From NCBI RefSeq assembly GCF_002150005.2, contig NZ_MSPP01000004.1:62001-126000 (forward strand): 64,000 nucleotides of DNA. The letters are read 5' to 3'. Made by a program: the position numbers and the translations under genes. Each line of letters opens with the position of its first letter. The first letter of the stretch is position 1. Of this stretch, positions 19,836-23,274 are shown piece after piece. This DNA comes from Marivivens niveibacter. Its GTDB lineage: Bacteria > Pseudomonadota > Alphaproteobacteria > Rhodobacterales > Rhodobacteraceae. Below the pieces are notes generated by a model. It worked only from the letters and a program-made list of their open reading frames with translations. It ran no database searches and had not been told where the DNA came from.

Positions 19836-19912
19836 TGGCGCGGTTGACGGGGCTCGAACCCGCGACCCCCGGCGTGACAGGCCGGTACTCTAACCAACTG
19901 AGCTACAACCGC
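19836..19912 (-). tRNA. tRNA-Asp(GTC), copy 3 in transcription order
   Basis: A 77-nt tRNA with the CCA end encoded. The acceptor stem GCGGTTG/CAACCGC, discriminator G, D-arm 'AGCTCAGTTGGTTAGAG', T-arm 'GGTTCGAGCC' and anticodon GTC (complement at 19876-19878) all read cleanly. It decodes GAC/GAU. Confidence 0.97.
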
Positions 19913-19943
19913 ACTCTGGCATCCTGTGTCGTTCGAAAAGAAG

Positions 19944-20020
19944 TGGCGCGGTTGACGGGGCTCGAACCCGCGACCCCCGGCGTGACAGGCCGGTACTCTA
20001 ACCAACTGAGCTACAACCGC
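19944..20020 (-). tRNA. tRNA-Asp(GTC), copy 2
   Basis: Identical to the neighbouring copies over all 77 bases, including encoded CCA and anticodon GTC. It sits between two identical 31-bp spacers and is presumably processed from a shared precursor. Confidence 0.97.
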
Positions 20021-20051
20021 ACTCTGGCATCCTGTGTCGTTCGAAAAGAAG

Positions 20052-20128
20052 TGGCGCGGTTGACGGGGCTCGAACCCGCGACCCCCGGCGTGACAGGCCG
20101 GTACTCTAACCAACTGAGCTACAACCGC
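20052..20128 (-). tRNA. tRNA-Asp(GTC), copy 1 (promoter-proximal)
   Basis: Identical 77-nt tRNA-Asp with encoded CCA. It is the first copy behind the predicted promoter at 20166-20194, with a leader of roughly 30 nt. Confidence 0.97.
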
Positions 20129-20236: not shown

Positions 20237-20273
20237 GCAAAAAACAAAACGGGGCGGAAAAACCGCCCCGTTT
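20237..20273 (-). terminator. Terminator after the Ala/Asp-rich repeat protein gene
   Basis: AAACGGGGCGG (20247-20257) pairs perfectly with CCGCCCCGTTT (20263-20273) over an AAAAA loop. On the minus strand it is followed by a T-rich run. Confidence 0.88.
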
Positions 20274-20296
20274 CCAAACACTTATGGGATGAAAAA

Positions 20297-21313
20297 TTAC
20301 ATACCCAATGCGGATTTGATTTGATCGATCACGCTTTGGATCGCTTCTGGATTGTCGCCAGCCATCTCTACGGCTTTGGTCAGCTGTTCTTTGATCGCAT
20401 CCGATACCGGCGCGTTCTCCAGCATTGCGGTTACTTTCTCTGCGTCAAAGTTTTCAACAGACAATAGCGATGCCGGATCCATATCGCCCAGCATGCCCGA
20501 TGCTGCGCCAACCAGGCCGGTCATCGCACTGCCAGCAGCGTCAGCAGCGCTATCTGCAGCTTCGGCAGCGTCAGTTGCAGCTGCACCAGCAGCCTCTACT
20601 GCGGTGTCTGCCGCGTCCATAGCTGTGTCAGCTACGTCCGTCGCAGCGTCGGTGCCTGCTTCGATTGCAGCTTCGGTTGCGTCGGCGGCGGCTTCACCTG
20701 CTTCAATCGCGGCATCGGTTGCTGCGTCTGCGGCTTCGGCTGCGGTGTCTGCGGCTTCAGCGGCAACTTCTGCTGCTGCATCTGCTGCGTCGGTTGCCAT
20801 ATCGGTTGCTGCGTCAGCGGCTTCAGTCGCTGCATCTGCTGCTGCGTCAGCGGCTTCAGCTGCGGTTTCAGCAGCTTCGGCTGCAACGTCTGCCGCTGCT
20901 TCTGCTGCGTCGGTTGCAGCTTCGGTTGCTGCGTCAACTGCGTCAGTTGCAGCTTCAGCCGCTGTATCAACCGCGTCAGTAGCGGCGTCAGTTGCCGCAT
21001 CAACAGCGTCGGTTGCGGCTTCAGTTGCTGCATCAACAGCATCACCAGCTGCATCTGCCGCTGCCTCAACAGCTTCGCCAGCTGCATCAACAGCTTCATC
21101 AGCTGCTTCGGTGACTGCGTCCATCGCATCGGTCGATGCTTCAGCAGCAGCATCAACGGCATCGCCAGCCGCAGCAACAGCATCATCAGCAACGGTTGTT
21201 GCAGTGTCGGTCGCTTCGCCAATCGCCTCTAGCGGGTTACGGTCTTTGGCAACAAACTGGTAGCCGAAAAAACCCAGAATCGCTGCAATAACTAGAATAA
21301 TAGTCGCTCTCAT
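20297..21313 (-). CDS. Membrane-anchored acidic Ala/Asp/Thr-rich repeat protein (LEA-like 11-mers)
   Basis: A 338-residue protein of unknown function. One N-terminal hydrophobic helix (about 3-20) is followed by 'AKDRNP', then a long low-complexity region (about 33-265) made almost only of Ala, Asp, Glu, Thr and Val. Part of it follows an 11-residue period of the form AATEAATDAVD. No Lys or Arg occurs in the repeat region, so it is strongly acidic, and an extended amphipathic helix is likely. A non-repetitive C-terminal domain (about 280-338) contains 'VSDAIKEQLTKAVEMAGD'. The ATG at 21313 follows AAGGACAGG. The period resembles LEA group 3 or apolipoprotein repeats, but those are Lys-rich. 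Envelope spacer, membrane-stabilising or desiccation roles are all guesses. Confidence 0.8.
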   Translation of the reverse strand: MRATIILVIAAILGFFGYQFVAKDRNPLEAIGEATDTATTVADDAVAAAGDAVDAAAEASTDAMDAVTEAADEAVDAAGEAVEAAADAAGDAVDAATEAATDAVDAATDAATDAVDTAAEAATDAVDAATEAATDAAEAAADVAAEAAETAAEAADAAADAATEAADAATDMATDAADAAAEVAAEAADTAAEAADAATDAAIEAGEAAADATEAAIEAGTDAATDVADTAMDAADTAVEAAGAAATDAAEAADSAADAAGSAMTGLVGAASGMLGDMDPASLLSVENFDAEKVTAMLENAPVSDAIKEQLTKAVEMAGDNPEAIQSVIDQIKSALGM

Positions 21314-21491
21314 AACCTGTCCTTCCACTCATACAGGGGCCCAAAATAGGGCGAATGACCGGTTAATGGCATGACTGCGCACAACTTAAAAGTCACAAGC
21401 AACGGGGAATTATGCGTAAAATTGTCCAGTGCTTTTGCCGCTTGCAGAAAGTCGCCTAGATGCTTAGGTTGCACGCGAAATTCTAATAGAC

Positions 21492-21508: not shown

Positions 21509-22051
21509 GCCCGCAGACCGCATAACGCACCACCCGTGCGTGAAACAGGACCCCGGACAAACGAACGCATCCGGGCACCAGAAATCCGCTTGATCGGCGC
21601 CGAAGGTGAAAACATCGGTGTCGTGACCCCTCAACGCGCAATGGCTCTTGCCGACGAAGCCGGGCTCGACCTAGTCGAGATTTCGCCCAACGCGAACCCG
21701 CCCGTTTGTAAGATTATGGACTTTGGCAAGTTCAAATACGAACAGCAAAAGAAAGAAGCCGAAGCACGGAAGAAACAAAAGGTCATTGAGATCAAAGAAG
21801 TTAAATTCCGTCCCGGCACCGACAAACACGACTATGACGTGAAAATGCGTTCGGTCCTGAAATTCCTGGACAACGGCGACAAGGTCAAAGTGACCCTGCG
21901 TTTCCGTGGCCGCGAAATGGCACACCAGGATTTGGGCCGTCAATTGCTGGAACAGATCGCCGAGGACGTGAAAGAACACGGTAAGATCGAGAACATGCCA
22001 AAGATGGAAGGCCGCCAAATGATCATGATGATCGGGCCGCAGCCTAAATAA
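21506..22051 (+). CDS. infC: Translation initiation factor IF-3
   Basis: A 181-residue initiation factor that binds the 30S subunit, keeps it apart from 50S and proofreads the start codon and initiator tRNA. The N-domain ('[20 protein letters not shown]'), the basic linker ('[16 protein letters not shown]') and the C-domain ('[18 protein letters not shown]', '[16 protein letters not shown]') are complete. The start is taken as ATA at 21506; a longer frame from 21371 adds 45 residues with no family resemblance. Use of a non-canonical start, which IF3 itself discriminates against, implies the autoregulation described for E. coli infC (ATT start). It is a single-gene unit followed by a hairpin. 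Confidence 0.94.
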
Positions 22052-22097: not shown

Positions 22098-22329
22098 ATT
22101 CATTTATCGGCTTGCGCATCTATTTTAAAACAATCGCTCCACAAACCTCTACGATTATCGTTGTTCTTCAATAAAATTAGCCCCTTAGGCATTCACGAAC
22201 AATTAATCATCTGGGCACTAAGCCCCCACATTTCCGCAAAACGGGCCATCGTTGCGCATATTTTTGCCTTAAACCATGGGTATACCACCCCAAAGGTGGG
22301 AAGAGGTTCTACACTGCGAAAGGCAGGAT

Positions 22330-23274
22330 ATGCAGGATTTACCGAGTGACTTTGAAACCAACCTCGAGGATCTCGAGGGTGATGAATGGTTCGATGCGTT
22401 AGACGAGTTTGCCGAAACATACGGAACTTTCGAACCATTGGGGAACGACCATGTGGCTGCATTTTTGGATGCGGGCAAAAAACTCGTTGTCACATTTGAA
22501 TCGTTTTCAGACATCGAGGCCCATTCCGAACGGAACGAGCCGCGCGGCTTTGACTTTGTTCGCGCCTTTGGCTGGTCGCACCTATCGATCATCTCTCGCA
22601 ACGATAGCTGGTTCCGCGACAAATCGATCTACGGATATATTGACCGCCTCATCGACGACGGCTTTTTCGAAGATTTTGACGAAGTTCTGTTCTACGGCGT
22701 GCATCGTGGCGGCTACGCGGCTGCAGCCTATTCCGTCGCCGCGCCAGGTGCGCGGGTATTGGCCATTCGCCCTGTTGCTACGCTAGACCCGCAAATTGCA
22801 TCTTGGGATCGTCGGTATCTGACAGATCGTCGCCTAAATTTCACCGACCGGTTTGGGTATGCCCCAGACATGATCGAAGCTGCGGATCACTGCTACGTCC
22901 TGTTCGACCCACGTGAAGACGCAGACGCAATGCACACCGCCCTATTTACGCGTCGCAATACAACCAAACTCCGGTTACGCGGCTTTGCTGATCGAATTGA
23001 TATATCGCTAGACGACATTAAGGTACTAAATCAGATTGTCGGTCACGCTATGGCCGGAACACTGACCCAAGGCATCTTTTCCCAAGTTTATCGTGCCCGC
23101 CGACACTATATCCCGTACCTGCGATCTTTGGTCATGCTGTTGGAATCGCGCGGTGAAATCGAACGCGCCTCTCGCGTATGTCGTCATGTGCTGCAGGAAC
23201 GCCAACGCCCGTTCTTTGTTCGAAAACTGGCAGCATTCGACGAAATGTTGTCAACAGACGAACCTGTCGAATAA
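22330..23274 (+). CDS. Uncharacterised Roseobacter-type protein, alpha/beta-hydrolase-like
   Basis: A 314-residue soluble protein. The middle part resembles an alpha/beta-hydrolase core: 'VLFYGVHRGGYAAAAYSVAAPGARVLAI' (residues about 117-145) has the strand-elbow-helix pattern, but with HRGG in place of a GxSxG nucleophile. The N-terminal part carries 'DAGKKLVVTFES' and 'FGWSHLSIISRNDSWFRDK'; the C-terminal helices are Arg-rich ('VYRARRHYIPYLRSLVMLLE'). Similar proteins in this group have, as I recall, been labelled phosphoadenosine phosphosulfate reductase, but no PAPS-reductase motif is visible, so that name should not be trusted. ATG at 22330 has AGGCAGGA upstream; the alternative at 22276 lacks a good site. 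Function unknown. Confidence 0.72.
   Translation: MQDLPSDFETNLEDLEGDEWFDALDEFAETYGTFEPLGNDHVAAFLDAGKKLVVTFESFSDIEAHSERNEPRGFDFVRAFGWSHLSIISRNDSWFRDKSIYGYIDRLIDDGFFEDFDEVLFYGVHRGGYAAAAYSVAAPGARVLAIRPVATLDPQIASWDRRYLTDRRLNFTDRFGYAPDMIEAADHCYVLFDPREDADAMHTALFTRRNTTKLRLRGFADRIDISLDDIKVLNQIVGHAMAGTLTQGIFSQVYRARRHYIPYLRSLVMLLESRGEIERASRVCRHVLQERQRPFFVRKLAAFDEMLSTDEPVE

Follow-up and report, generated by a model that had tools for sequence, protein, structure and literature searches.

The gene at 20297..21313 on the minus strand of the window (the whole 64,000-nucleotide stretch of DNA analysed here) encodes a protein that is read, with a probability of about one half, as an inner-membrane-anchored periplasmic stalk holding a three-helix adaptor domain off the membrane. 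The gene, its family, its synteny, the helical phase and charge of its linker, and a confident fold prediction for its C-terminal domain (C-domain) have been computed. The anatomy of the protein is well supported, and its function is what we infer from that anatomy. Membrane-anchored helical stalks are a known kind of protein, while the acid-striped straight helix together with the C-domain appears to be new. The family is syntenic and, as far as family libraries and a paper search show, undescribed; no description of it was recognised in a word search of open-access PMC papers, which is weak evidence of absence. A preliminary description made from the letters alone had seen here an anchored acidic protein built of LEA-like 11-residue repeats. 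Its observation is confirmed and is stronger than stated, and its interpretation is partly supported. It did not notice that a family is defined by the C-terminal domain, the phase of the helix and the position beside infC taken together.

The stalk gene lies between the divergent infC and three tandem tRNA-Asp genes, with the following features:

20297..21313, minus strand: coding sequence of 338 aa, with a transmembrane (TM) helix, an acid-striped Ala-rich linker and a C-terminal three-helix domain (open reading frame and models)
21254..21304, minus strand: single TM helix, about residues 4-20 (sequence and full-length model)
20486..21229, minus strand: linker, residues 29-276, with an acidic stripe at 99.0 degrees per residue and an Ala/Val face opposite (Fourier analysis)
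20300..20479, minus strand: C-terminal domain, residues 279-338 (LLSVENFDAEKV...NPEAIQSVIDQIKSALGM), a predicted helical bundle conserved in relatives
21320..21326, minus strand: Shine-Dalgarno-like GGAAGGA, six bases before the ATG (read from the sequence)
20246..20274, minus strand: intrinsic-terminator-like hairpin of 12 pairs, about 23 bases past the stop
21557..22051, plus strand: infC (IF-3), the part matched by Pfam domains, divergent neighbour (Pfam and NCBIfam)
19836..20128, minus strand: three tandem tRNA-Asp(GTC) genes, downstream

The start codon of the stalk gene is the ATG at 21313 (minus strand), and a GTG at 21328 is less likely as the start because the alignments of relatives begin at the ATG. 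The scan that gave the terminator-like hairpin yielded no sigma-70-type promoter match. An antisense open reading frame on the plus strand (20352-21263, 303 aa) is taken to be a mere reflection of the Ala/Asp/Glu codons. The three tRNA-Asp(GTC) genes repeat in units of 108 bp that match at 100% in TRF, including the spacers, and same-genus genomes have two tRNA-Asp copies (L063, L064, L123, L124).

The composition of the 248-residue linker is A117, D39, T27, E24, V15, G12, M5, S4, I3 and L2, with 0 Lys or Arg and a net charge of -63. This agrees with the earlier account of one N-terminal membrane helix followed by over 200 Ala, Asp, Glu, Thr and Val residues without Lys or Arg. Identity within the linker is highest at lag 11 (z 10.4 against shuffles) and then at lags 7, 22 and 29, all of which are near-whole numbers of alpha-helical turns. 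Eleven residues make three turns at 98.2 degrees per residue, and the canonical heptad corresponds to 102.9 degrees. In the Fourier spectrum, the Asp/Glu positions give a peak of power 59.1 at 99.0 degrees per residue, compared with a mean maximum power of 5.9 in shuffled linkers, and the observed power was reached in 0 of 200 shuffles. A helical wheel shows the acids gathered in a single sector that faces Ala and Val, with Thr along one flank. Over overlapping segments of 44 residues the power of the stripe is 10-14, falling to 6.2 in the last, and the phase drifts evenly along the linker without a jump. From the stripe, the wheel and the even phase, the linker is therefore patterned as a single long amphipathic straight helix. 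The 11-residue period, although real, is the by-product of an acidic stripe along a straight alpha-helix. The preliminary description was right about an amphipathic helix that is strongly acidic, tethered to the membrane and periodic in hendecads, and only its statement that the period is clear "in part" understates a stripe that spans the linker. In the full-length model the TM helix is followed by long helices at 27-143 and 148-265 and then by the C-domain. The long helices have a pLDDT of mostly 43-70 and may for this reason be only marginally helical.

The same anatomy of TM helix, linker and C-domain recurs among relatives. A total of 69 members were collected, with identical last 60 residues counted once; the weak member L016 (E 4e-7) is among the 69 and was excluded from two alignments. 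In 57 of the 69 linkers the stripe is significant at p<0.01 against 200 shuffles. These 57 have a median of 98.5 degrees and quartiles of 98.25-98.75, or about 3.65 residues per turn, and 55 of them peak at 96-101 degrees. The 12 linkers that lack a significant stripe have 52-168 residues and are Ala-rich, and five of them have more than 4% Lys/Arg. The linkers are between 44 and 511 aa long, with a median of 179 aa; the longest is that of L016 and the next longest is about 430 aa. The net charge is negative in all 69 linkers, although weakly so in some (e.g., -6 or -8), and 33 are devoid of any Lys or Arg. The C-domain and the TM helix align without large gaps, whereas the linker does not. 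Linker sequence and length drift in the family while the stripe persists. As a control, 2545 stop-to-stop frames of at least 120 aa from the window and 60 loci were scanned for Asp/Glu periodicity. Strong periodicity was found in 55 frames, 47 of which belong to the stalk family (median 98.5 degrees), the window gene being counted twice among these 47 since L061 overlaps the window. The other eight peak at 72, 145 or 180 degrees and none of them falls in the range of 95-103 degrees.

The family alignment gives the C-domain the consensus LLTxEGFDxDKVxEMIDxSxLxxxxKTxLKxAVExAxDNPELLxxxLxQxKxALGL. This domain of about 57 aa is predicted to be all-helical. Modelled alone with AlphaFold2, it has a mean pLDDT of 85.6 and helices at 8-11, 19-27, 33-48 and 50-64, and in the full-length model its pLDDT is about 88-93, which bears out the earlier remark that the C-terminal domain is distinct. 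The C-domains of 36 members gave no match above the curated cut-off in Pfam, and the window protein as a whole gave matches below curated cut-offs only in Pfam and NCBIfam. In PHROGs, which has no curated cut-off, the whole protein matches phrog_305 (tail tape measure) at E 5.9e-5 over residues 46-336. The C-domain alone has no match there at E up to 1, and the phrog_305 match is therefore read as linker composition. Comparison of the C-domain profile with PDB sequences gave five rows. The first, 8eoz ("C3HR3_4r", E 3.7e-5 over 17 residues), was set aside as likely spurious and is probably a designed protein, judging by its name; the remaining four are at E 0.59 or worse. The streptococcal fibronectin-binding protein FbaA (9mlu) is both the second PDB row and the top Foldseek row (E 1.9), neither of which is significant. 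VIA-align pairs the C-domain with generic small helical bundles at Z up to 5.9, a range described there as common for helical bundles. These structural rows point to no function, and a relative may still exist. By these comparisons the C-domain appears to be a small conserved domain, which we could assign to no catalogued family.

In a sample of 296 genomes of the same taxonomic family, 181 match the C-domain profile, mostly once per genome, with two matches in seven. A whole-protein search gave matches in 17 of 41 related genomes, some of them via the biased linker alone. In a class-wide sample the C-domain was found in 6 of 337 genomes, five of them from the same taxonomic family, and the match in the lone outsider is weak (E 3.6e-4, 39/66 positions). 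Named carriers are Actibacterium lipolyticum, Loktanella and uncultured Rhodobacteraceae (five loci), as well as Pseudorhodobacter turbinis. Because of these named hits, the family is assigned to the Rhodobacteraceae/Paracoccaceae. The infC gene is head-to-head with the stalk gene and wholly 5' of its start in 60 of 60 loci, which are a non-random set of chosen matches on longer contigs, mostly better-scoring ones. The distance from the start to the infC match has a median of 252 bases and a range of 18-539 in these loci. The replicon that carries the P. turbinis copy is 1.58 Mb long and is listed as a plasmid; there, too, infC adjoins the copy. A ferredoxin-NADP reductase-like gene is convergent downstream in 45 of the 60 loci; in the one member scanned it scores 97 bits with NF008178 (NCBIfam) against a cut-off of 390 and 23.1 bits with NAD_binding_1 (Pfam) against 22. 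No functionally telling partner gene is linked, the usual neighbours being infC and the reductase-like gene. In genome G009 the main gene (L009:1330-2208) is followed by a tandem second copy (L009:2412-2819) with a very short linker in a 135-residue frame.

Translation of the frame, on which the preliminary description depended, is upheld by several lines of evidence. The frame is coding, because homologous C-domains are found in the 181 genomes, because dN is well below dS in one close pair, and because of the Shine-Dalgarno-like site and the terminator-like hairpin. In this pair (L002/L003) dN is 0.039 and dS 0.383 in the linker, and dN is 0.022 and dS 0.340 in the C-domain.

The C-domain profile found no match in 115 of the 296 genomes, and the infC site was inspected in 21 match-less genomes, made up of three same-genus genomes that the whole-protein search had not matched and 18 of 20 listed negatives of the C-domain profile. 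All 21 have infC. By eye, no stalk gene was seen at this site in 17 of the 21. This was judged from the frames on the opposite strand, of which the three longest were inspected over about 1.5 kb (0.6 kb in L122). The other four (L125, L137, L133 and L135) have a frame with a TM helix and an Ala-rich stretch. In L125 and L137 the frames are complete, keep the TM helix and the Ala-rich linker, and end without the C-domain. The C-domain profile gives nothing at E up to 1 in any of the 21 loci, including L133, where a diverged C-domain can be seen by eye. The count of 181 of 296 may thus be an undercount. Within the genus of the window, the gene is absent in G001, G003 and G004, where the tRNA-Asp near infC is kept; among the gene-carrying genomes, tRNA-Asp is near the locus in G005 and G006 and not in G002. 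On an infC tree the presence and absence of the gene need about 16 changes, compared with a shuffled mean of 18.9, and because this tree is poorly resolved the number of losses is rough. The stalk gene appears to be an old one in the family, passed on mainly by vertical descent and dispensable in many lineages. Since it is missing from many relatives, its function is dispensable and not essential everywhere.

The topology counts cover 63 of the 69 members, the script having made no call for six. Lys or Arg precedes the TM helix in 61 of the 63, and 56 have a net-negative charge over the 15 residues that follow it. The second or third residue is usually basic in 36 N-termini that were compared, and the TM helix that follows mostly ends in Gly-Tyr. 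By the positive-inside rule this suggests an N-in, C-out orientation in which the linker and the C-domain are periplasmic. From the anatomy we also infer the self-association, the location and the partner binding of the stalk protein. The N-terminal helix would anchor it in the inner membrane with the N-terminus inside, and the linker would form a near-straight alpha-helix with Asp/Glu on one face and a broad Ala/Val face opposite. Fully extended, the linker would reach about 37 nm in the window protein and about 27 nm at the family median. Such lengths are enough to cross a periplasm. The Ala/Val face would probably pack two or more stalks into a straight bundle, or keep one helix extended, and the acidic face would keep the stalk soluble and off the anionic membrane. 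The stalk would hold its adaptor domain of about 57 residues near the cell wall or the outer membrane, where this domain may bind a putative wall or outer-membrane partner. The stalk would not be a fixed ruler, because the linkers span 44-511 aa.

In favour of the periplasmic stalk we count the recurrence of TM helix, linker and C-domain among relatives, the selection on the helix, the Lys/Arg before the TM helix, the net-negative flank after it, the conserved stripe, the negative charge of all linkers, the pLDDT of 85.6 for the C-domain, the predicted long helices and the precedent of TolA as a known layout. Against it we count the variable linker length, the low pLDDT of the long helices, the absence in 17 of 21 genomes, the loss of the C-domain in L125 and L137, the lack of a telling partner gene and the 12 of 69 linkers without the stripe. 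Among the three roles suggested in the preliminary description, that of an envelope spacer fares best. A surfactant or lipid coat is disfavoured, as the face opposite the acids consists of Ala and Val without Lys or bulky residues and is probably a poor binder of anionic membranes. We also put forward, more tentatively, the wider proposal that selection keeps the physical pattern over the sequence. A polyanionic helix with a single stripe, straight over tens of nanometres and turning once in 3.65 residues, might then serve as a periplasm-spanning stalk with a new three-helix adaptor, independent of Tol-Pal, TonB and Mic60, in a so far undescribed envelope family of the Rhodobacteraceae.

The charge of the linker (about -60 per chain) could itself be the function, as a fixed polyanion serving as a membrane-bound cation buffer in the periplasm, a hydration layer or a LEA-like protectant, with the C-domain secondary. 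The uniformly negative charge of the 69 linkers, 33 of them free of Lys and Arg, fits this explanation, as do L125 and L137 with their TM helix and linker and no C-domain. However, bulk charge does not need the acids to be held in one helical stripe, and some linkers are weakly charged, with a net of -6 or -8, for example. The alignment of the C-domain and TM helix without large gaps, which the linker does not share, and the absence of the gene in three same-genus genomes also speak against it, and we consider it unlikely.

If the C-terminus were inside instead, the protein would be a cytoplasmic stalk or scaffold, in which the C-domain acts as a polar or membrane scaffold. Some members do have Lys or Arg also just after the TM helix, as in the KDR of the window protein, but the charge distribution across the family (Lys/Arg before the helix in 61 of 63, net-negative flank in 56 of 63) makes this orientation improbable.

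The layout of the periplasmic stalk is shared with TolA, which, according to passages of PMC10666116 and PMC12204202, consists of an N-terminal TM helix, a domain II and a C-terminal domain. Domain II is given as 110-335 residues with a median of 192 aa in a passage of PMC12204202, which is close to the family linker median of 179 aa. Both proteins have a long helical region, here the helices at 27-143 and 148-265, which are a low-confidence prediction. The number of repeats in TolA is variable (PMC3477136), and a helical domain II is described as unusual outside the gammaproteobacteria (PMC12204202). These likenesses raise the question of a TolA/TonB-type force transducer, whose TM helix would sit on a proton-driven motor and whose stalk would pull an outer-membrane partner. 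The SHLS motor-binding motif described for the TM helix of TolA (PMC10666116, in part) is found in 0 of 69 members of the stalk family, and the linker is almost without Lys. In addition, the C-domain is predicted to be all-helical and about 57 aa long, the gene lies at infC and not in tol-pal, and the window protein has no match to the TolA model TIGR02794 (NCBIfam) at E up to 1. Two other genes in the same genome match the TolA model, both below the cut-off and with Pro-rich middle parts. A force transducer is thus very unlikely.

There is about as little probability that the protein is a phasin- or apolipoprotein-like coat of lipid or polyester granules. It resembles Phasin_2 in its Ala-rich helical composition, and sub-threshold matches to Phasin_2 and Apolipoprotein occur in 9 and 6 of 12 full-length members, respectively (Pfam, E up to 0.1). 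The window protein scores 21.7 bits with Phasin_2 against a Pfam gathering score of 24.9, and 14 bits with Apolipoprotein A1/A4/E against 90, so both fall under the curated cut-offs, and mostly on the biased linker. Another member reaches E 5.7e-7 with Apolipoprotein, the cut-off comparison covering the window protein only. Unlike a granule coat, the stalk protein is anchored by a TM helix and its linker has no Lys, and a phasin above the cut-off is encoded elsewhere in the genome.

Membership in the LEA, phasin and TolA families has failed in each case. LEA group 3 proteins, as characterised in a section of PMC8670023, contain an 11-residue amphipathic helix. The stalk protein resembles them in its 11-residue amphipathic helical repeats (lag 11, stripe at 99.0 degrees). 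Dure's LEA motif reportedly has Lys at repeat positions 6 and 8. Proteins of this group are soluble and are induced under water stress, and in the stalk protein a TM helix is predicted. The stalk linker has no Lys, the protein has a TM anchor and a folded C-domain, and no LEA family is among the Pfam matches of the window protein (E up to 1) or of 12 members (E up to 0.1), so the LEA-like assignment of the preliminary description does not hold, and the protein does not look like a stress protein of the plant type.

In the b subunit of ATP synthase, a long Ala-rich helix of hendecads is held by a TM anchor and acts as a stalk. The likeness to the stalk protein is one of build. Mic60/Mitofilin is also alike in having a TM anchor, a long helical region and a C-terminal helical domain, and weak Mitofilin matches occur in 2 of 12 full-length members (Pfam). 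The same genome has a Mitofilin-like gene elsewhere, which is itself below the Pfam cut-off. The C-domain profile aligned to the C-terminal part of its product gives a probability of 0.1% in hhalign, a comparison with one sequence that is below the Pfam cut-off.

DNA repeats of 21, 33, 66 and 120 bp are detectable in the gene. Synonymous codon identity in the window gene is 0.38 at lag 11 compared with a mean of 0.35 over lags 1-60, and because synonymous codons at lag 11 agree hardly above average, it is at the level of the protein that the repeat is kept. The helix is under selection, and not the DNA repeats alone. That the linker is unselected low-complexity sequence drifting through repeat slippage, as these DNA repeats and the wide length variation might suggest, is hardly credible given the codon test, the control frames (eight others at 72, 145 or 180 degrees against 47 of the family at a median of 98.5), the low dN relative to dS in L002/L003, and the absence of a wide spread of helical angles among the 57 significant members.

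With this protein, an abundant bacterial group gains a family and a domain that are widely conserved and apparently uncatalogued. The members of the family are easy to find and delete because of their constant address beside infC. The linkers form a natural length series (44-511 aa) of one design, which could be used as a probe of straight, highly charged helices and in studies of what spans or organises the periplasm in bacteria other than the gammaproteobacteria.

Other observations concern the surroundings of the locus and the genome. In 10 of 60 loci, too small a number to build on, the gene for an OmpA-domain protein lies past infC. Examples are L087:2546-4591, L100:2287-4071 and L097:420-2618, in which Pfam OmpA matches at E 1.6e-16 or better. 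The OmpA-domain proteins have long Ala-rich acidic repeats (e.g., AAADQ), with an acidic period of 72 or 180 degrees in these three. The phasin that scores above the Pfam cut-off (G000:C6:508830-509099, L150) may point to polyester granules. In the window, a 332-aa open reading frame follows infC (22276-23274) and has only a weak match to the XcbB/CpsF capsule-biosynthesis family at E 4e-4, with 19.7 bits against a cut-off of 125.
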